Below, piece after piece: positions 4,182 to 27,892 of a DNA stretch of 37,803 nt. The stretch spans positions 1-37,803 of IMG/VR virus record IMGVR_UViG_3300027777_000009, one strand, 5' to 3'. The DNA comes from a virus. The position numbers and the translations under genes are program-made. Each line of letters opens with the position of its first letter. Position 1 is the stretch's first letter. The notes under the pieces were generated by a model. The model saw only the letters and a program-made list of their open reading frames with translations, was not told where the DNA came from and made no database searches.

Positions 4182-4883
4182 TCATAGCAACGTCCCCTCT
4201 AATTCGCGGCGGATTCGTTCGCAGGCGTTGTCGAAGTGCCGCTTGTCCTTCTCCACGCCGATGAAATTCATGCCGAGCCGGATGCAGGCTATCGCCGTCG
4301 TTCCGCTGCCCATGTATGGGTCGAGCACGGTTGCGCCTTTCGGCACGCCGAGTTGTTCCAGCGTCCACGCCATCACGCGCACAGGCTTTTGTGTCGGGTG
4401 TCCGACGCGCTCGGCGTTCGTCGCCGCGATGCTACATGAGATTTGCCGGGTGTTGCGGTCTTGGTTCGTCCATGCGAGTTCCGCGTTTGCCATTGACGGC
4501 ACAGCATCCGGCTTGTGCCAGACCAGCCAGCCACGAGACAGCGGAAGCGGGTAGTAGTTCCCGCCCCAGATTGCCACGAGCGGAGCGAGGCCTAGCAGTC
4601 CGTCCACTTCGCCGGGTTCGTTGTCCCACGATTCAGCCACCTTTCCGGCGCGGCGTTGCCACTTGGTCGGTTGAGCCGCGAAGCCGATGCCATACGGCGG
4701 GTCGGTCACTACCGCGTCACACGCGAAAGGCAGCACGTCTTTGCAGTCAGCATGGTAGAGGACGCACCACGAATGACGCCCAACCAGACGCTGGAGCGAA
4801 TGACTACCGCGTTGGCAGTCATCGGCGAGGCGAGGCGTTGTTGGCGCGGTAGTCATGCGGTCAGCTTTTCGTTGACCTAACAT
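4182..4883 (-). CDS. DNA methyltransferase (DPPY type), orphan
   Basis: The protein has 233 residues. TDPPYGIG (residues 60-67) is motif IV and LDPYMGSGTTAIA (187-199) is motif I with the SAM-binding FxGxG turn. The order IV before I makes it a beta-class enzyme, and DPPY usually means N6-adenine, with N4-cytosine possible. HPTQKPV (162-168) is the family motif that precedes motif I. No endonuclease is next to it, so it is probably protective or regulatory. The gene sits between TerS and TerL, which are adjacent in lambda. By eye it is about 60% GC against about 50% in its neighbours, which suggests later insertion. The start at 4883 overlaps the TerS stop; M10 (4856) is an alternative. Confidence 0.9.
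   Translation of the reverse strand: MLGQRKADRMTTAPTTPRLADDCQRGSHSLQRLVGRHSWCVLYHADCKDVLPFACDAVVTDPPYGIGFAAQPTKWQRRAGKVAESWDNEPGEVDGLLGLAPLVAIWGGNYYPLPLSRGWLVWHKPDAVPSMANAELAWTNQDRNTRQISCSIAATNAERVGHPTQKPVRVMAWTLEQLGVPKGATVLDPYMGSGTTAIACIRLGMNFIGVEKDKRHFDNACERIRRELEGTLL
4800..4856. repeat. perfect 12-bp inverted repeat at the methyltransferase 5' end
   Basis: ATGACTACCGCG at 4800-4811 is exactly complementary to CGCGGTAGTCAT at 4845-4856, with a 33-nt spacer. The distal arm coincides with the alternative start codon M10 of the methyltransferase. It could be an operator for self-repression, a translation-blocking mRNA hairpin, or a trace of insertion. Confidence 0.6.
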
Positions 4884-5912: not shown

Positions 5913-6632
5913 AATGACGAACCGTTCCTTCTTCATGTAAAGACGGCACATATTTCCGGGCGGGATTCTGAACTTCGTGCCGTGATTGCGTAGAACAGCA
6001 CTGTTTGGCTTTGATTCGCGGGCATCAAAGTCTATGGCGATTGTCCCTTGCTCCAACTCATAGGCCAAAAGGCTCAAATGCAAATCCTCAAAACAGTCCG
6101 CTTGCACGAACCGGATTTTGTTTCCGTCCCGCTCGCCCTTAACCAGCAACAAACGCCGCAGCTTGCCCGCTGCGATGCCTAAAAGTGTTTCGTGCGACCA
6201 ATACGGGATAGGGTCGTTGCCTTCTGATTTCAGCGGACGCACAAAGATTTGATTGGCGTCGTCTTGCACCTTGAACATATCCGATTTGCCCGAAACCGTG
6301 TGGCGCAAACCCTTCCGTCCTTCGGCGTCAAGCCAGCCGTATTTTCTCACCAAGTAGAGCATCACGTCTTTGGGTTGCGGCTCTTTGTGGAAAAGCGTTA
6401 TCAGGTTCGTTTTGGCCGTGTAGTATTTCAGTTCCCAGCCCATCGAATCGGCAATGTCGAGATTGCCGGTTGTCAGGCCGAACAAATCTTCAAGAAAGTT
6501 TCCCGGTCCGCCAGTTCCGGCAGTGCGGGCGGTAGCTGGCAAATCATACCAGCCGTGTTGAAGTATCGCTCGCAACCGTGTGAACAATTCCTTCTTGTTT
6601 CGTGGCGGGTGCGGAGGATAGTCAATGCTCAT
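5910..6632 (-). CDS. type II restriction endonuclease, MvaI/BcnI family
   Basis: The enzyme has 240 residues, close to MvaI (246) and BcnI (238), which cut CCWGG and CCSGG. The core is recognisable: GGPGNFLEDLFGL (E48), then D62 and WELKY (E67, K69) as the PD-(D/E)XK acids and lysine, LITLFHKEP, an H-T-V-S-G segment near residue 113, YWSHETL, and HGTKFRI near the C-terminus. The start M at 6632 overlaps the methyltransferase stop (ATGA), so methylase is translated first, as expected for safe establishment. Exact specificity cannot be read from the sequence; CCNGG-type sites are the prediction. Confidence 0.9.
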   Translation of the reverse strand: MSIDYPPHPPRNKKELFTRLRAILQHGWYDLPATARTAGTGGPGNFLEDLFGLTTGNLDIADSMGWELKYYTAKTNLITLFHKEPQPKDVMLYLVRKYGWLDAEGRKGLRHTVSGKSDMFKVQDDANQIFVRPLKSEGNDPIPYWSHETLLGIAAGKLRRLLLVKGERDGNKIRFVQADCFEDLHLSLLAYELEQGTIAIDFDARESKPNSAVLRNHGTKFRIPPGNMCRLYMKKERFVI

Positions 6633-7441
6633 TTTTTGATGTGGCGACGCGCTACTTCTATGCGTTCGCGGGCAATCTTGCAATAGTCTTTTGAGATTTC
6701 CAACCCAATCCATTTGCGACCGCACACCTCGGCGGCAATCGCCGTTGAACCGCTGCCCATGAATGGATCAAGGATGATTTTGGCCGTAGTGGATTCAATA
6801 CAGCGTTGCGCTAGTTCAACCGGAAATGGCGCGGGGTGTGGATTATTCACTTCTTGCGGGATAACCCAAACGTCGCCAGCGGCGTTCGCTTTGTCGGCAA
6901 GTTTGAAGTCCGGTTTGCAAATCAGATAAATCACTTCATACGTCGGCAGGAAATATCCGGCATTGAAATTGATTCCCCCCGCACGTTTCCAGATAATGAT
7001 TTGCCGCACTGGAAAGTCCTTCACGATGTCGGAACGGTCTTGCAACTTACCGTCTTGGACGCGCCACTTGTGATTATAGAAAATCGCGCCGTCACTCCGC
7101 AAAACGCGCATCATGGCCGAAAGGCAATCACGCTGCCATTTCACATATTCTTCATGCGGCATATCGTCCGAATGAGACTCGTAGCCTTTCATCAGTTGCG
7201 CTTTTTCCCATTTGCCGCCACTGCCGTTTTTCATGCCGTTGCCAGTGGAGTTGCGGAGATTGTAGGGCGGACTGGTGACAATCAGACCTACGGATTGCGC
7301 GGGCATTTTGTCCATCAATTCGGTGCAATTACCGCAATGAACATTCCCAAACCATTGCTCCATTTGGCGGTCGGGGACAGTGGTTAGCGCGGCTTTAAGC
7401 AAGCCGTCCATCGTCGTCGGGATGTGCGGGAAGTTTTTCAT
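6629..7441 (-). CDS. type II DNA methyltransferase (TSPPY, beta class)
   Basis: The protein has 270 residues. VTSPPYNLR (55-63) is catalytic motif IV and LDPFMGSGSTAIAA (224-237) is motif I, so it is a beta-class amino-methyltransferase. SPPY is usual for N4-cytosine enzymes, which fits pairing with an MvaI/BcnI-type nuclease, since M.MvaI and M.BcnI make N4-methylcytosine. A target-recognition segment lies between the motifs (about 125-215). It is coupled by ATGA overlaps to the transposase upstream and the nuclease downstream. It should protect phage and host DNA from the linked nuclease. Confidence 0.92.
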   Translation of the reverse strand: MKNFPHIPTTMDGLLKAALTTVPDRQMEQWFGNVHCGNCTELMDKMPAQSVGLIVTSPPYNLRNSTGNGMKNGSGGKWEKAQLMKGYESHSDDMPHEEYVKWQRDCLSAMMRVLRSDGAIFYNHKWRVQDGKLQDRSDIVKDFPVRQIIIWKRAGGINFNAGYFLPTYEVIYLICKPDFKLADKANAAGDVWVIPQEVNNPHPAPFPVELAQRCIESTTAKIILDPFMGSGSTAIAAEVCGRKWIGLEISKDYCKIARERIEVARRHIKK

Positions 7442-10178: not shown

Positions 10179-11225
10179 CTAAAATTGATTTTGAAACTCA
10201 ATCCGCTTTGCCAACGGCGGTGAAACTTCTACCGTAATCACCGGATTAAACCGCATTCTTGAAGATGGACACGGCACGCTCTTGGCATCCGCATGGCAAT
10301 AGCCAGCCGTCGTTTCCATATTCTTGTGACCCATTACCTCTTGCAACGCCTTGATGTTGATGCCCGAATCAAGCAGATGCGTAGCAAAACCGTGGCGCAA
10401 CTCATGCGGTAAAACGAAAATCCCCAACCGCCGCCGACTTTCCCTCACCGCCTGCTGCACATAATCCTTGAGCATGTGCCATCGCCCAATGACCTTCGTG
10501 CGCGGATGCGCGCAAGTCCGATGCGCCGGGAATACCCAAGCGTGCTGCCAGCTAAACCGCATTTCAGGGTATTTCTTACCAAGCTGATTCGGCAGATGAA
10601 TTGGAATCTTATTGCGGCAATCCATTTCAAACGTCCGGTGCGCGATAATGAGTTGCCGCTGAAAGTCCGCCACTAATTCATCGGGTAAGGCGATAATGCG
10701 ATCCTTTTTGTTCTTGGCCGCGTGAATGAAGATTTCCCGTTGTTCAAAACGAATATCTTTTACTTGCAACGCCACCGGCTCACCCACCCGCATCCCCCGC
10801 TCATATAAAATCCGCGTGATAAAATTGGTCGGATACCCGCCCACATCCCGCACATCCGCCAGCAACCGCCTCACATCAGTGACCGAAGGCGCATTTCGGA
10901 TTTGTTTAGGTTTCGTCGCCCGCAACGCATTCACATCCTTCAAAGGTTTTTTCAATACATCCTTGTAAAACCAACAGATAGCCGCAAACGCCACATCCTG
11001 CGTGCTGACCGAGCAATCATCCACCAACACCATTTGCGTCAGCCAATTCTCAAACTTCTGTTCACTCGTCAGCTTGACCGGCTGTGTGTAAGCAAACCGC
11101 AGGAATCGGCGCACATAGCCAAGATACTGCTGCTCCGTTGACCAAGCATTATCCTGTAACGCCATTACCGCCCGACCCTTTTGGATCAAAGCCTCAATGT
11201 TCTGCTCGCGGATTTGTGGATTCAT
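10179..11225 (-). CDS. tyrosine recombinase of integron-integrase (IntI) type
   Basis: The protein has 348 residues (IntI proteins have about 320-350). The catalytic set is complete: R146 in YERGMRVGEP, the K-beta region near KNKKDR, H274-x2-R277 in LPHELRHGFATH, H300 in MGHK and nucleophile Y309 in TAGYCH. Between patches lies the IntI-specific insertion, recognisable as GKKYPEMRFSWQHAWVFPA followed by H-P-R-T and a GRWHML segment. An N-terminal SAM-like core-binding domain is present. It probably integrates the phage. No attC or attI site was found nearby. The ATG at 11225 follows the upstream stop by 4 nt. Confidence 0.9.
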   Translation of the reverse strand: MNPQIREQNIEALIQKGRAVMALQDNAWSTEQQYLGYVRRFLRFAYTQPVKLTSEQKFENWLTQMVLVDDCSVSTQDVAFAAICWFYKDVLKKPLKDVNALRATKPKQIRNAPSVTDVRRLLADVRDVGGYPTNFITRILYERGMRVGEPVALQVKDIRFEQREIFIHAAKNKKDRIIALPDELVADFQRQLIIAHRTFEMDCRNKIPIHLPNQLGKKYPEMRFSWQHAWVFPAHRTCAHPRTKVIGRWHMLKDYVQQAVRESRRRLGIFVLPHELRHGFATHLLDSGINIKALQEVMGHKNMETTAGYCHADAKSVPCPSSRMRFNPVITVEVSPPLAKRIEFQNQF

Positions 11226-11229
11226 TATG

Positions 11230-11520
11230 CTAAGGAGTTTTTGTATAAACACTGTTCGGCGTGATGGTCACTCGCACAGGTTTTGGAATCCGCCAGCCAT
11301 GCGGTTCGCTTTTCAGGTCTGGCCGGGTGCGGATGTAGCTGTATTCTTTTTCGATGAAGTCCACGGCTTGCTTTCTGGTTTTGAATATCGCAGGCAGCAG
11401 TCCGCGATGGATGATGTGTCGCGTCTCGCCATTCATTTTGTTTGCGCTTCGCCAGATAGCCGCCCACGCCGAACAAGGCGCTGCTGCCAACAGGGTGGGG
11501 CGTTGACGTTTTGGTTTCAT
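11230..11520 (-). CDS. small conserved phage protein of unknown function
   Basis: The protein has 96 residues starting MKPKRQRPTL, with the ATG overlapping the upstream stop (ATGA). The C-terminal half carries FKTRKQAVDFIEKEYSYIRT and a segment ending PHGWRIPKPVRVTI, which looks like a compact conserved fold. The upstream gene's other product (11693-12037) has a related KTVFKTFPSREEAEKFV segment, so the two may share a small domain. I do not recognise a function. Confidence 0.7.
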   Translation of the reverse strand: MKPKRQRPTLLAAAPCSAWAAIWRSANKMNGETRHIIHRGLLPAIFKTRKQAVDFIEKEYSYIRTRPDLKSEPHGWRIPKPVRVTITPNSVYTKTP

Positions 11521-12052: not shown

Positions 12053-13135
12053 TCAAATCTTCGTCAAAATATTCGCGCTGGTTTTGGTTTCGGTCACACC
12101 GGAAAGCAGTTCGTCTAGCTTGGCGTCTAACGCCTTTCCTTTTGCTCCGGTCGCGGTCTTGAGCGCGGTCTTGAGCGCGGTCTTGCCAACGGTAATACAT
12201 TCGGCAACAAACTTATCTTGAGTGATGCCTGCGGCTAAAGCGCGGCTGAATACCGTTTGCGCGTCCGTGATTTTCTCCGTCTCGCGTCCGGCCTTGAGCG
12301 TCCAACCTTCCACGGCTTCACTGGAATCAATGCGGCGGCGAACTTCGGCGGTTGCGGTTTCTTCGGCCAAGCGGACAAGGGATAGGAATTTTCCGAGGCG
12401 GTCAGATGCCAAGGCTTTAATTCCAGACTCAACTAATTCCGGTTCACCTACGACATTCTTGATTGGCAAGCTGGCGTTTAGAAACTCCTGACAAGTCGGC
12501 TTGGCCTTGCAATACTGACATTGCTTGTCGCCCGGTATGCGCGGCGACTTCGGATCATTGCTCGCCACAATTCGCGTTTCCATTTCGCCAAGCGCAACAA
12601 TCAACGCCATCTTGTCGTATTCGCACGGCTCTGGCGTCATCGTCACCCAAGGTTGAATTGGCGCGACATAAACCTTGTCTAGTCCGTATTCAATCGCGGC
12701 CAAAACTGCCAAATCGCGCAGTTGCAAATTGCGGGAAGATTCAGCGACTTCGTTCCGGCCAGTCTTGTAATCCAGACAAAGACCAACCTTGCCATAGACA
12801 TAAACCACGTCCGGCTTGCCGCTGTGTTTGAAGCCGCCGAAATCTGACCAGATACGTTGCTCGCGGCGACACCACGGCTTGTTATCGCCAAAAATCTTTT
12901 CAAGTAAAACCTCCTCAATGGCCTTGCATTTCAAAGCGGTTCCAAGCTCGTCGTCGGACAGTGCGGAAATTTTTTCCTGCGATTCAAGCGCGGCATGAAT
13001 CCGATTGCCGCTTTCCGCGTCCGTGGACTTCTCGCCTTCGGGCAAGCCGCGTTGCGCTAGATGCCGTCCGTGGCAAAGTAAGTCGGCCTCCGCGCTGCTC
13101 GCGCTAGTCATGCCTTGTCGTTCGTCGTTAATCAT
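12053..13135 (-). CDS. PD-(D/E)XK nuclease, DUF2800/Cas4-RecB type, RecT partner
   Basis: The protein has 360 residues. Nuclease motifs are GNRIHAALE (H47), KPDVVYVYG (D109) and LCLDYKTGR (D122, K124). C21 in ADLLCHG and the cluster C206-x2-C209-x5-C215 can form the Fe-S cluster found in AddB and Cas4 nucleases. As a 5' to 3' resecting exonuclease it would make the single strands that RecT (the upstream gene) anneals. I chose the start M at 13135, with leader ACGCACAAACAATTTT; 13165 is an alternative with a GGAGGAG upstream. Confidence 0.85.
   Translation of the reverse strand: MINDERQGMTSASSAEADLLCHGRHLAQRGLPEGEKSTDAESGNRIHAALESQEKISALSDDELGTALKCKAIEEVLLEKIFGDNKPWCRREQRIWSDFGGFKHSGKPDVVYVYGKVGLCLDYKTGRNEVAESSRNLQLRDLAVLAAIEYGLDKVYVAPIQPWVTMTPEPCEYDKMALIVALGEMETRIVASNDPKSPRIPGDKQCQYCKAKPTCQEFLNASLPIKNVVGEPELVESGIKALASDRLGKFLSLVRLAEETATAEVRRRIDSSEAVEGWTLKAGRETEKITDAQTVFSRALAAGITQDKFVAECITVGKTALKTALKTATGAKGKALDAKLDELLSGVTETKTSANILTKI
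12153..12186. repeat. 12-bp tandem repeat in the nuclease gene
   Basis: GCGGTCTTGAGC is repeated at 12153 and 12165, with a partial third unit at 12177. It encodes a KTALKTALKTA helix near the C-terminus of the nuclease. It can expand or shrink by 4 residues without breaking the frame. Confidence 0.8.
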
Positions 13136-13200
13136 AAAATTGTTTGTGCGTGTTTTGGGCGACATACGCACCCCGTCGCCTCCTCCGGCTTGCGCCGAAA

Positions 13201-15174
13201 TTACTTCTTGCCGTAAAGTTTGATGATGTTTGAAAGCGTCTTTACCTGCGCCAAGACTTCGCAGACAGATTCCGGCAATTCGTCGTAGCTCGCCCAAGAA
13301 TCCGCACCCTTGGCAATGTTCTTGTTGGTAATGTAATCGCGCACGTCGTCAAACGGCACTTTGGCTTCCGTCAACATCCGCGCGACAAAGGCTTTGGCTG
13401 TTTCTTGTTCTGGTGATGGTTCTGCGGCAGGCGCACTATCGCCCATCGGTATTTCGTCGGCTTCAACCGCAGCGGGCTTGTCAAAGATGGGCTTGGCCGC
13501 TATGGGTTCGGATAAAATGGAAGCAGAATTAAACGGAGCATCTTCGTTTTCCATCGCATCAGCGACTTCCGGCGAAAGCGTAATCCACTTGGACGCACGG
13601 CGGAAAACGGTGTTGTGGGTCGGAACCATGCTTTTTCCTGCCAGATAGGTTTTTGAGTTTCCGCTTACGGCAATGCACCGAGTTGGAACAGACGCAATCA
13701 TTTCAATGCTCTCAATAGCCCTGTATTTGGCGATTTTGCGCGGCTTAAAATTGGCGATTTTGCGCGGCATCTGCGAAGGGCAAGCGGTGGGTTGCCAGCC
13801 AACAAAATGAGCCTCACAAACGACTCCAAACCCATTCATTTTTTTAATCCCAACTTGAGGCACATCGCCAAGTGAAGAAACCAGCTCCGCTACGGCGGCA
13901 GACAGTTTTTGGTTTTTATTGTAGAAATGAACTCGACCGCGTTGCTTGTCAATGTGTCCGTCCGAATCAACAAGTCCAGCGAGCAATGCAAGCCGCTGCT
14001 CTTTTGATGCTCGCAAATAAATTTCGGGAACGTGCTTATTTTGAAGCACGCCAAGGGATCGCAGGTCATCTAAAAACCCGCCCTTCAATCGAACGCACAA
14101 AGCCCCACTCCGTTTATCAACGCCAATTTTACCGAGTTTATACTTTGAATCTAATGCCATTTTAACAACATGGTCTTTGTCGGATGCTCCGCAGGTAATT
14201 GAGGCAGCCCTTGACGTTCCATCGCCAAGCCAATAGCCAAAAAGGTATGGGTCTATTGGCAGAACCGACTCGCAAATTTCAAGCGCTCCCTGCATTGGAA
14301 CCGTAACCGAAAGTCCTTCCTGCTTCGCTTCGTAAAGTTCGTTAACTGTGTGCGATTTGTATTCGACTTTATTTGCATTAGATTTTCCAAATCTGGAAAC
14401 CCACTTATGCTCATCATCACAAACAATGCTTTCCCCATTTGAGAACGCAACCTTAAAGCATTGGAGTTTTTTGATTTCGGAAACCGCCAAAACCAAAACC
14501 TGAACCCCATTCATATCAAAAACAACTTGTCCTTTTCTGATTTCGCCCATAGTTGTCCATCCTGATGAAGTTGGAATTGGCGTGTCCAAGGCAAGCCCCT
14601 TCTTCGCCATTTCGTTGTAATCCGTCACCCACGGGCCAGAACCGCTTGCCCTGCTGCGTTTTTTGATAGCGTCAATTTCGCCTTTGGTCATTACGTCGGT
14701 TTGTGTGCTGCCGTCCTTGAACGTGATAGTGGCATAGGCCGCATACATCGCCCCACGTTCGTTTTTCCAATCAATCTGATGTTTAACAACGCCGTTTTCC
14801 CAAGAGAAATTATCTTTGTCGCAAACCACTTGGGCAAATACGCCGGACACATCGCCGGAGCGTTTGGCAAGCTCGACGATACCTTTGTAGTCCACTATCA
14901 ACGTGCAGACATTGCCGTAAGGAATCAGGTGCGCGCGGCGTCCGTCCGGCTCAAGGCCGAGCGCGGAGCAGTTCAACATACATTGAATAACGCTTTCCGG
15001 TGTGCAGTCGAGCAGCTTGGGCGTTTTCATCAATGCCGTCAGGCCAACGCGCACAAATCGGTCAGGCGTCATGTGCTTGGGCAGCGACAAGGCGATTTGC
15101 TGTTTGAAATAATCGCCCGCGATTTGCTGGCGTAGAGTTTGAGTTGGTGCGGATTTTGCGATTGCATTTGTCAT
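13201..15174 (-). CDS. recT: RecT single-strand annealing protein interrupted by an intein
   Basis: The precursor has 657 residues; the two exteins together make 328. N-extein 1-192 has the RecT fold region (SALGLEPDGRRAHLIPYG at 70-87, LIVDYKGIVELAKRSG) and ends WVTDYNEMAKK. The C-extein starts TVFRRASKWITLSPE (522 on). Joined, EMAKK and TVFRR restore the conserved RecT EMAKKT segment. An acidic proline-rich linker and a C-terminal helical part from about 590 follow, possibly for partner binding. The product anneals DNA with the Cas4/RecB-type nuclease encoded next. The ATG at 15174 has an A/C-rich leader (AACAACCAAAACAAAACT). Confidence 0.93.
   Translation of the reverse strand: MTNAIAKSAPTQTLRQQIAGDYFKQQIALSLPKHMTPDRFVRVGLTALMKTPKLLDCTPESVIQCMLNCSALGLEPDGRRAHLIPYGNVCTLIVDYKGIVELAKRSGDVSGVFAQVVCDKDNFSWENGVVKHQIDWKNERGAMYAAYATITFKDGSTQTDVMTKGEIDAIKKRSRASGSGPWVTDYNEMAKKGLALDTPIPTSSGWTTMGEIRKGQVVFDMNGVQVLVLAVSEIKKLQCFKVAFSNGESIVCDDEHKWVSRFGKSNANKVEYKSHTVNELYEAKQEGLSVTVPMQGALEICESVLPIDPYLFGYWLGDGTSRAASITCGASDKDHVVKMALDSKYKLGKIGVDKRSGALCVRLKGGFLDDLRSLGVLQNKHVPEIYLRASKEQRLALLAGLVDSDGHIDKQRGRVHFYNKNQKLSAAVAELVSSLGDVPQVGIKKMNGFGVVCEAHFVGWQPTACPSQMPRKIANFKPRKIAKYRAIESIEMIASVPTRCIAVSGNSKTYLAGKSMVPTHNTVFRRASKWITLSPEVADAMENEDAPFNSASILSEPIAAKPIFDKPAAVEADEIPMGDSAPAAEPSPEQETAKAFVARMLTEAKVPFDDVRDYITNKNIAKGADSWASYDELPESVCEVLAQVKTLSNIIKLYGKK
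13612..14598 (-). other. class-3 intein with LAGLIDADG endonuclease, inside RecT
   Basis: The intein is residues G193-N521 of the RecT precursor (329 residues). The first residue is Gly, not Cys or Ser, in GLALDTPIPTSSGWTTMGEI. The class-3 WCT set is present: W258 in DDEHKW, C500 in VPTRCIAV, and T522 as the +1 residue after the terminal THN. H520-N521 allow cyclisation and release. Between the splicing blocks are two LAGLIDADG motifs: LFGYWLGDGT (311-320) and LLAGLVDSDGHI (397-408). All key residues are intact, so it should splice and its nuclease may home. An 18-bp direct repeat (13727-13744, 13751-13768) encodes PRKIA twice. Confidence 0.92.
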
Positions 15175-21640: not shown

Positions 21641-24487
21641 TTAGTAAGGACACCAAGTTGCGGTTGGACTTCCGGCGGAATACGTTTCCGAGAAGTATTC
21701 ATTCGGCTGCAATGGAATGGTGACATCCGTTGCCAGAGTGAAAATGGTTGTGCCGTTCTTCTTGATGGCCGTGGCGGTCACGCCTATGCCGTTGTCTATG
21801 AACACGAAGATGTTTTTACCAAATGTATTCGTCCAGTTCACCGTTGTAGCAGGAAACGAAATGCTCGACGGCGCGAGCGTGTTGGAGGCAAAGGAGGCAA
21901 AACCCACATTAGCAGAAATCAAACCATCAAATTGGTTTGTTCCAGTCCCAGTCCATATTGATTTTGGCCGATTTAATGCCGTTCCAATGGTTCCAACATT
22001 GTCGCTGATAGGCAAGAATCCTCCCGAGTAGAATTGCCATCTCAACGAATTTCCCTCGCCAAGCTTTAATGTCGAGTCAAGAGATTTGATGGTGGAAGCA
22101 ATCACCGTCCCCGTCAAAATCGCGTTGTCGTTCGTCTGTCCTTCGCTAAATCCGTTCGTGGAGACTACGAAATTAAGATTCGTCGGCGTGCCGGTGAAAG
22201 TTGGATTGGCAATCGTCGGGCTGACGATGGTGTTATTATTGCTAACCGTTAAAGCCGCCACGCCGTTGAACAAAATCCGCAAGCGATTCGTCCCCATCAT
22301 TATTTGATTCGTCTGGCCGTTAATGATGGTGGCGATTACAGAATTTGACGGCGTGCTGTAAAATTGATTCGTGCCTTGAATTGAAAGTTCCTGCGCCGTC
22401 CCGTTCGTGCTGGCGACGTAGTTTAGCGCGGGCAAGTTGCCGATCGGAACAGTGCCCACAAGATTGTTGGCGTTCAGATTCGTCAACCCGCCGCCGTTAT
22501 TGTTCGCCAGATTGGTCAACACGGACGAGGCAGGCTGGTCGTTGTGAACCGTATAAACCAAACCCGTTGTCGTCACAGTCGGAATCATTCCGATGCTCGC
22601 ACCGTTGGTGGAAATTCCCGACAATGGTAAATTAGTTGAGCCACCAAGATTGCCAGTAACCAGACCTTTCAAAATGCTCGTGCCTTCCACCACCAGATTG
22701 CTTGCGCCAACGGAATTGGTCGCGCCGATGTGGACGCCGTTGCCGCCGCTGATCATCACCGTGGAGTTGCTTTGGACATTGCCCCAAACCGTGCCGAGTC
22801 CGGGGACGTGCGCTTGATACGCGCCCGTGACGGAGTTCGTCCAGATATAGCGGGTGGTTGTGGTGTTGGTGAATAGCGGATTGGGCAGCGCGGCTTCGGG
22901 GACGAGGCTGGTCAGTTGCGAGGCATTAAGATTCGTCAAGTTGCCCGCGTTGTAGCTCCGCTGATGGAAACCGTCGTTCGTCGTTTCGAGCCAGCCGAGC
23001 GTGTTGGTCGTGCCGTTGTTTAAGACGCCTGCGGGAATGCTGCCGCTGGTTAGTTGTGATGCGCTGAGGGCGGTCAACCCGCTGCCGTTGCCGGTGATTG
23101 TGCCGATTGATGAAATTGTTGCTGTCCCATTCGCAAACGATGCGCCGCCGTCAGCATTCAGAGATGAGTGAGGCAGCGTCACCTGTTTCCCTACATACCC
23201 ATCTGCCGAATTATCCACAATCCCGCCAGAGGATGCGGGGAGAGTGATTTTTGGGATGGTGGGATTCGGTTGAGATTGAATAATAGAAACACCGTTAATC
23301 TTTGCCTGAAAGTTAATTTCATACCCACCATTCCAATCTAGCCAGTTTGTTCCTGTTCCAGAGTTACACTGACCACCAGAAGAATTAGCAGTAGTAGAAT
23401 AATACCAGCCGCTGTTAATCGTGGTGTCGCGGATTATAAAACTTGGGTCAACAGAGTTAGTATAAATAAACGCTGTTCCTGCTCCTGATTCGTTTGGACG
23501 TGAATAGTTGTAATACCACAAACCATTGGTCGCCACAGGAAACGCATTCCCCGTCACCTTAATCGTCGGTGCATTGGCGACGGTGAAGTTGCCAACGAAG
23601 TTATTGGCGTTGTTGGTAAAGTTTAATGCGCCACTTGCGGAAATAGTGTCAAAAACCGCCCCGCCCGTGACTTGCAACTTGTTACTGCTGCCGTCGTCAA
23701 ACGTGCCTCCAACAATGACATTGCCGCGAGGCACATAGGATGGAGAAATTCCAAGATAGGTGTTTCCAGATAATCCAGTTCCAGAGGGGATGCCGCCATG
23801 AATGAACACATCTCCTCCGTAATAATTCCCAACCGGAGGGACGACATTGCCGCCCGCCAAATCCAGAGACGCGGCATTATTGCTCGCTACATCATTCGGT
23901 CTGATTTTGATTTGAGGATAGGTGGTTTGATTCACGACGCCGGTATTCGTAGATACCAGCCCACTCGTATTCGTGCCCACCGCCACCGTCGCGCCATTCG
24001 TCACCAGCACGCCCACGGTCAGGTTCGTGTTGTAAAAGGTGTAGGTCGTGCCGCCGGAGCTTCCTTTTAGCGCAAACATTGCGTCAGCTTGCGCCATGCT
24101 ATACGCATAAATCCCGCTGCCGAGATTTGTTGAAATCGTCGTATAATCCACGGCATAAACTGTGATGGAAATGTTCGTTGGAAAGTAGTTCGTGAACTGA
24201 AGCGTCACCGTCGGCGGTTGGATCGACGAATAATATTTCACCAAATACGAAAGCCCGGAAATCATCGGGTTTGTATATTGCGAAGTCGTCACGACCCGCT
24301 TCACTTCATCGCCGACGACGTAAGACTTGTTTAGCGCGTTCAAATAAAACGGCTGGAAAGAAACCTGCTTAACGGTCTGTGTTTGGCCGAGGCCATTCAC
24401 GAAGGAATAAATCACGTTGATGTTCGTTTGCGCTTGGCAAACAAACTGTGTCAATAAAAGCGCAAAAACGATAATCCGCGTCATCAT
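21641..24487 (-). CDS. large tail-fiber-like protein with signal peptide
   Basis: The protein has 948 residues. It begins with a clear signal peptide (MMTRIIVFALLLTQFVCQAQ) although it lies in the tail gene block. The rest is Asn/Thr/Gly-rich with beta-helix-like repeats; GLT-x-L-x-A-x-x-L-x-x-x-(I/V)P units occur near 465-485, 510-530 and 663-685 (GNGSGLTALSASQL, NLTNLNASQL, GGGLTNLNANNL). The C-terminal end (IFVFIDNGIGVTATAIKKNG) is a compact strand domain. It is probably the receptor-binding fiber. The start at 24487 has the recurrent TTGACTTTTACTTTATT element; the GTG at 24511 is less likely. Confidence 0.8.
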   Translation of the reverse strand: MMTRIIVFALLLTQFVCQAQTNINVIYSFVNGLGQTQTVKQVSFQPFYLNALNKSYVVGDEVKRVVTTSQYTNPMISGLSYLVKYYSSIQPPTVTLQFTNYFPTNISITVYAVDYTTISTNLGSGIYAYSMAQADAMFALKGSSGGTTYTFYNTNLTVGVLVTNGATVAVGTNTSGLVSTNTGVVNQTTYPQIKIRPNDVASNNAASLDLAGGNVVPPVGNYYGGDVFIHGGIPSGTGLSGNTYLGISPSYVPRGNVIVGGTFDDGSSNKLQVTGGAVFDTISASGALNFTNNANNFVGNFTVANAPTIKVTGNAFPVATNGLWYYNYSRPNESGAGTAFIYTNSVDPSFIIRDTTINSGWYYSTTANSSGGQCNSGTGTNWLDWNGGYEINFQAKINGVSIIQSQPNPTIPKITLPASSGGIVDNSADGYVGKQVTLPHSSLNADGGASFANGTATISSIGTITGNGSGLTALSASQLTSGSIPAGVLNNGTTNTLGWLETTNDGFHQRSYNAGNLTNLNASQLTSLVPEAALPNPLFTNTTTTRYIWTNSVTGAYQAHVPGLGTVWGNVQSNSTVMISGGNGVHIGATNSVGASNLVVEGTSILKGLVTGNLGGSTNLPLSGISTNGASIGMIPTVTTTGLVYTVHNDQPASSVLTNLANNNGGGLTNLNANNLVGTVPIGNLPALNYVASTNGTAQELSIQGTNQFYSTPSNSVIATIINGQTNQIMMGTNRLRILFNGVAALTVSNNNTIVSPTIANPTFTGTPTNLNFVVSTNGFSEGQTNDNAILTGTVIASTIKSLDSTLKLGEGNSLRWQFYSGGFLPISDNVGTIGTALNRPKSIWTGTGTNQFDGLISANVGFASFASNTLAPSSISFPATTVNWTNTFGKNIFVFIDNGIGVTATAIKKNGTTIFTLATDVTIPLQPNEYFSETYSAGSPTATWCPY

Positions 24488-24490
24488 AAT

Positions 24491-24507
24491 AAAGTAAAAG
24501 TCAATTT
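24491..24507 (-). promoter_or_regulatory. TTGACTTT element before the fiber gene
   Basis: On the minus strand, ATTGACTTTTACTTTATT runs from the stop of the 53-residue gene into the ATG at 24487. It is one of five copies of the element in this genome, four of them 3-21 nt upstream of a virion gene start. Confidence 0.55.
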
Positions 24508-24662
24508 CCACACCCCTGACACGGCCTCTGCCCTGTCGCCTTCTGGATCAAGTCAGCCACGGCATCGTCAATGATTCCCGCCGGTATCGGCGGCGAGTCC
24601 TTGATGGCTACCGGCTTCGGTTTCTCGATGGGCTGCGCGTGAACGTGGATTTTCTTTTTCAT
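24501..24662 (-). CDS. small linker protein between tail-tip and fiber genes
   Basis: The protein has 53 residues, read by hand: MKKKIHVHAQPIEKPKPVAI then KDSPPIPAGI and a helix ending in CQGCGN. The ATG overlaps the stop of the 1077-residue gene (ATGA). It has a proline-rich centre and a C-x2-C end. Function is unknown. Confidence 0.7.
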   Translation of the reverse strand: MKKKIHVHAQPIEKPKPVAIKDSPPIPAGIIDDAVADLIQKATGQRPCQGCGN

Positions 24663-27600
24663 TTGATGAACTTGGCATATTGCGATGAGAAACGACCAGA
24701 CGCATTCACGTTGTCACGAATCGCATTGTAAGTTCCCCAATCGCTCGCGCAATCGGTATAGGCCCCACCTTCGGGGCCGGTGTAGCTGCCAGCGGTCTGA
24801 ATGCCTTTTTCGACGTTGTAACCGTTCCATTGTGGAGGCAAATGGACGTTGTGTGCGGTATCGTATTCGAGCGTCACACCGGAGGGCAGCGCGGGCGCAG
24901 TTTCCGTGCCGCTCCAACCGCCATTCGTCGGCAATGAGGCGCGGGCTTCCACCATCGGCGCGTGCGGATAATAACGATTGGTCGAGGTGTCGCCTTGGCC
25001 GCTGCCGTTGTCTTGGTTCCAGCCAAAGTGACCGGCTTCGGATGCGGGATTGAACGGGGCTTGCCAAAATGGGTCGGTCATGGTGGTGGCAATCATGCCC
25101 ATGTAATACGTCCCGTAAGTGGCATCGGCGGCGAGCGTGGGCATGGTCACCAAGTTCTGGGTGGCGAACTTTTCCAGTGAGCCAGCCACGCCACCCACCA
25201 TCACCGGGCAGCACGGCGTAAATTTAATGTTGGCATCAATTGCGCCGTATGACGTGCAGCCGAGTATGCCCGTTCCCGGTGTCGTGCCACCGAGCCAGAC
25301 GGTTGAAACGGAGGTCGCGGCTTCGAGGGCGGCTTGGCGCGTATTAAAATACCAACGGACTTTTACAAAATCGCCTTTCGGCGTGTCATCATCCCACCAC
25401 GGTTTCATGTCGTGCGGAATAAGATACTTCGCTGCCATCTGGTCGCCGTCGCACGTTGCGGTCAGGTCGCCCACATTCGTCTTGGTGAGAGTGACGGTGG
25501 TAATCAGGTTGTGCGGGTTGCCGTTGCCTGCGTCGGCATCGTAGAGGTCAACGGACTGCGTTATGCCGCTGCCCAAGTCCGTCCAATACGGCGTAGCGGG
25601 AATGGTGAAGGTAGTTTTATCCGTGCCAACATCATAGACGCCCGCACAGGCGAGCAAGCCAAACGGCGGCTTGCCCCACCAACGCATCTTGCCGCAAAAA
25701 GTTTGCCCCGCGCCGTCATAGTCAGTGGTGTCCACGTCCAACTCTGCCGCCATTTCGGGAAAATCGCAGCCGGTCGGAATGGGTATTGGCGTGCCGTAGG
25801 GTGTCATGGAATCTCCTATGACAGTCACCTGCGTAACGCCGTAGCCTTCAATCATCACCCAATCGCCCGTCACGGGTGCGGTTGCGCCCAGCGTTGGCGT
25901 GATGATAAGACTTCCGCCGCCGCCCGCGACGAATTTACAAACCGTTGCTTGGTCAACCGCCCACAAATCTTTGCCGTAAGGCCGCGCAAAATTGGCGCTT
26001 GGCCAGACTTCTTTGGTGTTCACCTGTTTGACACCAACAAGCGTGTTACCAATTTGTCGCTTCCAAAAGAATGGCAGGTTCGCGTCGGAAGCGATGCTGC
26101 CAGCCAGCGTGTCAATCTGCGCTTCTAAAAACGGTTGCCAACGCATCGTCACTTCGGGCAAGTAGGCTTCGCTCGCGTGACCGTAGCATTGCGTTTCCCA
26201 TTGGTAAGGATTAGCCGAGCCGAAGCTGGTGGTGACGCGACTTTGATAATCGCAACCAAACCAAAAGTGACGGTCGTAACCTGGATTATTGTGACTGATG
26301 ATTTCGCCTGTCCGTAGATGCGTCGGGAAGCCGACATTTGCCATGCCACCGCCAATGATGCGGGCGGCTGTCCATGATTGCACCCCGTCAACATAGCCCG
26401 GTTGCGTGAATTGTTCGTGACCGCCTACAGTGAACAGCCAGAGATAATCTTGAGAATCAATCCAGTCAATCTTTTCAAAGGTCGGCGTCCAGCCCGTCGC
26501 CCACGGAGCATGAGTGCCGTCACTGATGGGCGCGTTGTAGTCGTCCATGACGGATGGCATGGTGGTAATCCGCGTCGTTAAATCGCCCGCCACTTCGTCG
26601 TAACAACATAACGGCAGACGCGCCATTTGAGCATCGGTGCGGAGTGAACCATTCAACGGCCAGTCGCTCAAATCCCACGAATCCGCCGCTGCTTTCCAAT
26701 CAGCGTCGAGGTCGACAGCGGTGTATGGGTCGGATAATTCCCATGTGATTGAAAGCGTAACGTCATAGGTATCTGCTCCATACAATGCCGCCACAAAGCT
26801 AAACGTATAAGTGAACGTCGTATCATTCAACACCGCTTCGCACGCCCAATCCGAAGTGCCGGAATACGGTTTATGCTGCGTCATGGCTACGTGAGTGGCG
26901 GTGTCCACAGAAAAAACCGGCCCGTCAAAACTTGGCACGGTGGTATATTGCGAGGCTTGAAACACCAGCGCGTGCAAATCGAATGCGTTAACTTTGGAAC
27001 ATTTTGGCGGGGCGACGGCTGCCAAGACGCCGCTAATATAGGCGGGGCCGTTTTTGGTGGCGTCAATCGGGCTGTAAAGACAGCGAAAAACATAAGCACC
27101 ACTCCCGCCACAATCAACGGTGTCAGCCGCTAAACTGCTGGCCGGTGTTACCCCGCTATCAACCGTCCATTGCCCCGTAGTGGCGTCATAGCTGCCGGTG
27201 TTGGTATCGCTTTCGACTGTGAAATTATTTTCAACCAGTTCCACGATGCCGCTGGTCTGATTCACCGTTTGTTTTTTTGAGCCGGTGAAATGCGAGATTA
27301 ACGTGGCTTCAACGCCGGATTTACATTCGGCGTAAAAAGAAAACGTGCATTTCAGCGAACGATAGAGGGTTTGGGTAGGTGATGCCGAAGGCGTGGCCAC
27401 GCACTGTTCTGGGTCGGTGAACGGGAGCAATCCCTGCCAAATCTTTTTAGCCACCACGCCACGGAAGCCTGATTTCTTACAGGTGCGCGTGCCTACCGTT
27501 TCGCCGGTCGTGGTTGGTCGGTAATAGTTATGGTCTTTGAGAATTGTATCGGCTATCTCCACCATGTCGGGAGTGTAACCGTCCACGTTCCGCGTGGAGA

Positions 27601-27892
27601 GTCCGTTCAAATCGCCAATGCCACCCGCTATCCAACTGCCAATCCAATCTTGCGGGCAAAGGCTGAAATGATAGCCGTCACCGCCGCAATGCGTATATCC
27701 CAGTTGCGAATAACGGCCATACGGCGCAGTCTGAATCACCGTCGAGTCAGCGCATGAAGTCGTCTTGCGCACGAGCGTCACATTATCGTAACGCTTCACC
27801 ACATCGCAACCGCTCCAATGATTTGCGGAAGCGTTCGGGTTATTGCTACCCAAAGCCAGCTTGCGATACGGTGGTGCGAAGTTGCCGGGCAT
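24659..27892 (-). CDS. very large tail-tip protein of unknown family
   Basis: The protein has 1077 residues, the largest in the genome, with no signal peptide. It is rich in Cys, Trp, Gly and aromatic residues, with many pairs such as KCTFSFYAECKSG, CDYQSRVTTSFGS and CCPVMVGG. It lies between the distal tail genes and the fiber, where lambda has its tip protein J. Repeated beta strands and the lack of a coiled coil favour a compact hub or baseplate-like protein. I recognise no family. The gene starts TATG straight after the previous stop. Confidence 0.75.
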   Translation of the reverse strand: MPGNFAPPYRKLALGSNNPNASANHWSGCDVVKRYDNVTLVRKTTSCADSTVIQTAPYGRYSQLGYTHCGGDGYHFSLCPQDWIGSWIAGGIGDLNGLSTRNVDGYTPDMVEIADTILKDHNYYRPTTTGETVGTRTCKKSGFRGVVAKKIWQGLLPFTDPEQCVATPSASPTQTLYRSLKCTFSFYAECKSGVEATLISHFTGSKKQTVNQTSGIVELVENNFTVESDTNTGSYDATTGQWTVDSGVTPASSLAADTVDCGGSGAYVFRCLYSPIDATKNGPAYISGVLAAVAPPKCSKVNAFDLHALVFQASQYTTVPSFDGPVFSVDTATHVAMTQHKPYSGTSDWACEAVLNDTTFTYTFSFVAALYGADTYDVTLSITWELSDPYTAVDLDADWKAAADSWDLSDWPLNGSLRTDAQMARLPLCCYDEVAGDLTTRITTMPSVMDDYNAPISDGTHAPWATGWTPTFEKIDWIDSQDYLWLFTVGGHEQFTQPGYVDGVQSWTAARIIGGGMANVGFPTHLRTGEIISHNNPGYDRHFWFGCDYQSRVTTSFGSANPYQWETQCYGHASEAYLPEVTMRWQPFLEAQIDTLAGSIASDANLPFFWKRQIGNTLVGVKQVNTKEVWPSANFARPYGKDLWAVDQATVCKFVAGGGGSLIITPTLGATAPVTGDWVMIEGYGVTQVTVIGDSMTPYGTPIPIPTGCDFPEMAAELDVDTTDYDGAGQTFCGKMRWWGKPPFGLLACAGVYDVGTDKTTFTIPATPYWTDLGSGITQSVDLYDADAGNGNPHNLITTVTLTKTNVGDLTATCDGDQMAAKYLIPHDMKPWWDDDTPKGDFVKVRWYFNTRQAALEAATSVSTVWLGGTTPGTGILGCTSYGAIDANIKFTPCCPVMVGGVAGSLEKFATQNLVTMPTLAADATYGTYYMGMIATTMTDPFWQAPFNPASEAGHFGWNQDNGSGQGDTSTNRYYPHAPMVEARASLPTNGGWSGTETAPALPSGVTLEYDTAHNVHLPPQWNGYNVEKGIQTAGSYTGPEGGAYTDCASDWGTYNAIRDNVNASGRFSSQYAKFIK

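Follow-up and report, generated by a model that had tools for sequence, protein, structure and literature searches.

The recT locus

The window, i.e. the whole stretch of DNA that was analysed, is an entire IMG/VR virus record of 37,803 bases. A recT gene with an in-frame insert lies on its minus strand, overlapped at the 3' end by an exonuclease gene; the features of both are as follows, with a slash before the last residue or residues of a motif marking the insertion boundary:

13201..15174, minus strand, stop included: recT with in-frame intein, 657-aa precursor (ORF and translation, Pfam)
14599..15174, minus strand: N-extein, RecT residues 1-192, ending NEMAKK (the RecT Pfam match runs up to residue 192)
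13612..14598, minus strand: putative class-3 intein with LAGLIDADG homing endonuclease, residues 193-521, 329 aa
14401..14409, minus strand: block B, with H256 (B:10) and W258 (B:12, the W of WCT), aligned with MchDnaB1 His65 and Trp67
14215..14250, minus strand: LAGLIDADG motif 1 (PYLFGYWLGDGT)
13954..13989, minus strand: LAGLIDADG motif 2 (ALLAGLVDSDGH)
13675..13677, minus strand: C500, the block F:4 Cys and predicted initiating nucleophile, aligned with MchDnaB1 Cys124
13618..13620, minus strand: T519, the block G:5 Thr of WCT, within PTHN, aligned with MchDnaB1 Thr143
13612..13617, minus strand: H520-N521, penultimate His and C-terminal Asn
13201..13611, minus strand, stop included: C-extein, beginning with T522, the predicted +1 nucleophile
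12053..13297, minus strand: PD-(D/E)XK exonuclease gene, overlapping the recT 3' end, start codon uncertain (PDDEXK_1 4e-7, DUF2800, phrog_69 exonuclease 3e-24)
12758..12772, minus strand: empty [DE]xK/T site (DYK/TG) in the exonuclease

The window also encodes terminase, capsid, integrase, helicase loaders and a RusA-like gene. Two DNA methyltransferase genes (4182-4883 and 6629-7441) were noted, as were two very long ORFs of 956 and 1077 aa (21641-24511 and 24659-27892) with no PHROG or NCBIfam match. The best NCBIfam match of the tyrosine integrase at 10179-11252 is an integron integrase model, under its cut-off.

The interrupted ORF matches RecT (Pfam PF03837, E 2e-40; PHROG phrog_148, 9e-64) and LAGLIDADG_3 (Pfam, E 2e-8), in each case far beyond chance. 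Translation of the ORF gives the N-junction EMAKK/GLALDT and the C-junction PTHN/TVFRR. Alignment of the junctions with intein-free RecTs shows the RecT domain to be continuous once the insert is removed, which leaves a protein of 328 aa; both exteins are intact, the frame is open with no stops, and the C-extein retains a conserved RecT motif. The sequence-only reading had placed an intein of 329 residues at 13612-14598 within a RecT of 328, splitting its conserved core at EMAKK/T; coordinates, lengths and junctions are all exact, and the +1 Thr is, as it proposed, supplied by the host protein, T522 being the first C-extein residue.

PD-(D/E)XK exonucleases are the usual partner enzymes of RecT, and the two act together in RecET-type recombination. 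The DYK/TG of the window exonuclease is uninterrupted, and this is the site where related class-3 inteins sit in other phages.

Class assignment and splicing residues

The first residue of the intein is Gly193, so that, as had been read from the sequence, the usual Cys or Ser nucleophile is missing there, as is Thr. The WCT motif comprises Trp B:12, Cys F:4 and Thr G:5 (PMC5222942, PMC5050341), and in MchDnaB1 His65, Cys124 and Thr143 form a catalytic triad, to which Trp67 adds the W of WCT (PMC7664689). The window intein has all of these residues, H256-x-W258, C500 and T519, and its splicing blocks match those of the solved class-3 inteins MchDnaB1 and MsmDnaB1 with E down to 1e-19. The +1 residue (G:8) is T522, one of the two residues, Ser or Thr, that class 3 calls for. 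The sequence-only reading had assigned W258, C500 and T522 to the signature: W258 and C500 stand, and the Thr of WCT is T519, because that residue is defined at G:5 and T522 sits at G:8. Mutation of T522 therefore tests the +1 nucleophile and not the class-3 signature.

Among 81 related inteins in an alignment, HxW and the block F Cys are present in every one, and the G:5 Thr in 80. The absence of this Cys from such an alignment had been named as grounds for giving up the class-3 assignment. The junction is K/T in 55 of the 81 and K/S in 16; it is a chemical context shared across unrelated folds. One related class-3 intein (L146:1147-2142) ends in PTCN rather than PTHN, with Cys replacing the penultimate His.

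An AlphaFold2 model of the window intein, built with 50 inteins, is complete (pLDDT 96.7, pTM 0.93). Foldseek searches with it recovered PI-SceI inteins (E 2e-19), the class-3 MsmDnaB1 intein (TM by target 0.83-0.88) and I-DmoI. The splicing domain is thus predicted to have the HINT fold (matches to PI-SceI and 6bs8), and the two LAGLIDADG motifs, with their acidic residues, lie in a predicted endonuclease fold resembling I-DmoI. Searched against viral models (BFVD), it gave its best matches to a mycobacteriophage terminase, to a DnaB and to an 'HNH endonuclease'; entries of this last kind have been reassigned to RecB-like exonucleases (PMC5050341). Both the HN end, at residues 520-521, and the pair of LAGLIDADG motifs had been recognised beforehand, and the identification of a class-3 intein with a homing endonuclease agrees with the block alignment and the WCT residues.

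The insertion site in RecT

The chain of the solved LiRecT aligns with the window protein as MAKK/TVLRN, and K192 of the window RecT corresponds to LiRecT K206. We infer a three-residue offset between the chain and the numbering of the paper, since K206, R210 and N211 then fit. By this alignment LiRecT residues K206 and T207 flank the intein site, within helix alpha3 and at the base of the DNA groove. In LiRecT, K206, R210 and K215 touch DNA, and K206E abolishes DNA binding (PMC9772228). As the insert breaks helix alpha3 beside a DNA-contacting Lys, the unspliced precursor is probably unable to anneal DNA.

Other RecT inteins and their rarity

A DNA pattern and a profile scan revealed four further RecT class-3 inteins in IMG/VR contigs, at the same codon boundary:

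L048, UViG 2547132402_000001: RecT intein in an Edwardsiella-type prophage
L047, 3300005664_000547: RecT intein
L049, 3300046050_000003: RecT intein at L049:3282-4262
L050, 3300028888_001839, a 252-kb contig: RecT intein

The insertion motif in all RecT inteins is M-[AW]-x-K/T, and all hosts match RecT in Pfam. At all five loci the adjacent gene encodes a PD-(D/E)XK or YqaJ exonuclease, whose own [DE]xK/T site is empty. In the L049 intein the splicing residues are kept and the Asp of LAGLIDADG motif 1 is replaced by Asn (GYWLGNG), because of which its endonuclease may be inactive. In L050 an HNH-like free-standing endonuclease ORF (L050:5201-5908) was noticed by eye shortly downstream of the intein-bearing recT.

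RecT homologues without the insert, whose search had been proposed as a check, are readily found: the site is uninterrupted in an alignment of RecTs from Pseudomonas phage D14H, Methanosarcina virus MetMV and Mycobacterium phage Sbash, and likewise in phage Edno5. Occupied sites are rare, since the exact empty-site pattern alone matches at least 120 viral stretches. A pattern for an intein ending in HN before the RecT TVxRR picked up two genuine RecT inteins along with four chance matches in viral contigs, and 35 matches, none of them in RecT, in a species-genome collection; a second profile scan added no RecT intein, and a related-locus search with the window protein alone gave no match. The element itself is also rare, given that no homologous RecT intein was found in 50,697 phage records, 72,556 plasmids and 398 sampled Pseudomonadota genomes.

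The empty allele, probable mobility and kinship

The recT of phage Edno5 is a near-identical empty allele of L048: 30 of 30 bases are identical on each side of the boundary AAGAAA/ACGGTC, and the two RecT proteins share 97% and 100% identity on the two sides of the insert. The insertion in L048 is seamless relative to Edno5. The five inteins are 45-59% identical to one another, as against 30-46% for their RecT hosts, and this greater likeness of the inteins suggests that they spread by homing. The GC3 of the window intein is 0.43; that of 27 window genes averages 0.58, with a minimum of 0.46.

In two trees the RecT inteins cluster together (96/66 and 91/73), and the intein of L053, whose host is a phrog_35747 exonuclease, joins them. 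The RecT and exonuclease inteins together are split from those of terminases, portals and other proteins (100/96 and 99/96), and kinship of the RecT inteins with PD-(D/E)XK exonuclease inteins is supported by these sequence comparisons. Of a proposed transfer from exonuclease to RecT, only the kinship is supported: a tree that keeps all exonuclease inteins together is not rejected (AU p 0.35), so the move may have gone either way. No RecT gene was found within about 3 kb of the exonuclease inteins by a five-sequence model, a result that says little.

Comparison with known inteins and RecT proteins

The class-3 inteins that Kelley et al. 2016 (PMC5050341) describe in RecB/Cas4-like exonucleases of mycobacteriophages share with the window intein the WCT motif, the LAGLIDADG motifs, Gly as first residue, a Lys/Thr insertion in a catalytic motif and the same side of the tree; they differ in host, a PD-(D/E)XK nuclease interrupted at DxK/T, and are about 35-38% identical to it. 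The DnaB1 class-3 inteins of Mycobacterium smegmatis and M. chimaera (6bs8, 6rix) have the same fold with aligned Cys-His-Thr and Trp, but are mini-inteins without endonuclease, in a helicase host with a GK/S junction (PMC5222942). Phage TerL class-3 inteins, e.g. that of Mycobacterium phage LittleE, provide the best BFVD match and are likewise full-length with LAGLIDADG and K/T or K/S junctions, whereas their first residue is mostly Ala, their host is an ATPase and they occupy a separate branch. The window exteins constitute an ordinary RecT beside a PD-(D/E)XK exonuclease, as for RecT/Redbeta proteins (LiRecT, 7ub2; phage RecTs), in which MAKK/T is uninterrupted.

Class-3 inteins are already known, and RecT is a standard genome-editing tool. 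No report of an intein in RecT was found in the main text of open-licence papers, and RecT is absent from Kelley et al.; a table entry elsewhere is possible. The RecT host, the MAKK/T site and the kinship of RecT and exonuclease inteins appear new in the literature searched, in line with the earlier remark that RecT was unfamiliar as an intein host.

Interpretation and alternatives

On the best reading of the data, a phage RecT carries a full-length class-3 intein that includes a LAGLIDADG homing endonuclease and would splice, spread and share a lineage with exonuclease inteins; we assign this reading, based on sequence and structure models, a probability of about 0.92. The splicing steps are inferred from the intein family. 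C500 would attack the K192-G193 bond to give a branched intermediate at block F, the N-extein would be transferred to T522, and cyclisation of N521 would release the intein, ligating EMAKK to TVFRR in the 328-residue RecT; H256, W258, T519 and H520 are expected to assist. The endonuclease would cut intein-free recT at the conserved MAKK/T codons, with repair copying the intein in. Given the shared lineage, these inteins have probably moved between recT and PD-(D/E)XK exonuclease genes, in one direction or the other.

The sequence-only reading had raised the idea that splicing could control recombination. It is possible, though unlikely, that splicing is conditional, under ssDNA, redox or metal control, the intein serving as a post-translational switch for phage recombination. 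RecT would then be made as an inactive precursor, and splicing would await a cue from phage replication or damage (ssDNA or redox), a scenario that we consider doubtful; if true, annealing would be turned on when useful, and so would the repair through which the intein itself is copied. The split of the DNA-binding helix next to the K206 equivalent and the Cys as initiating residue fit such a switch, and there are precedents: a RadA intein whose splicing is induced by ssDNA (cited in PMC8987985) and oxidation- or metal-sensitive class-3 inteins of DnaB (PMC6195587, PMC7360933). Nothing here, however, points to slow or regulated splicing. Inteins generally insert near conserved active-site motifs (PMC5050341), so the RecT site needs no regulatory explanation, and the sporadic occurrence of RecT inteins, most of which retain their endonuclease motifs, is what one would expect of selfish elements.

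That the insert is inactive, with splicing lost and recT broken, or capable of N- or C-terminal cleavage only, is improbable. Some class-3 genes are indeed pseudogenes, such as Arthrobacter Arth_1007 (PMC3196547), but here all catalytic residues and both exteins are intact in an open frame, the AlphaFold2 model is complete and the conserved RecT motif persists in the C-extein. It is very unlikely that an intein of class 1 or 2 has been mistaken for one of class 3: class 2, formally possible because the first residue is Gly, is ruled out by the complete set of W258, C500 and T519, by likeness to solved class-3 inteins and by a tree position among other WCT inteins. A chimera in which assembly fused part of a RecT to a terminase-type intein, conceivable for an IMG/VR virus contig whose closest intein families are those of terminases and exonucleases, is ruled out as an artefact, with a probability close to nil, by the shared junction in five independent contigs and the seamless occupied/empty pair with Edno5.

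RecT thereby joins the known targets of class-3 inteins; in five diverse phages a single conserved site is occupied, and this lineage is tied to inteins found in the partner exonucleases of RecT. A homing endonuclease in the gene of a recombination enzyme also makes testable the old question of whether inteins profit from recombination or regulate it, and the Edwardsiella pair (L048 and Edno5) offers a ready natural test of homing.
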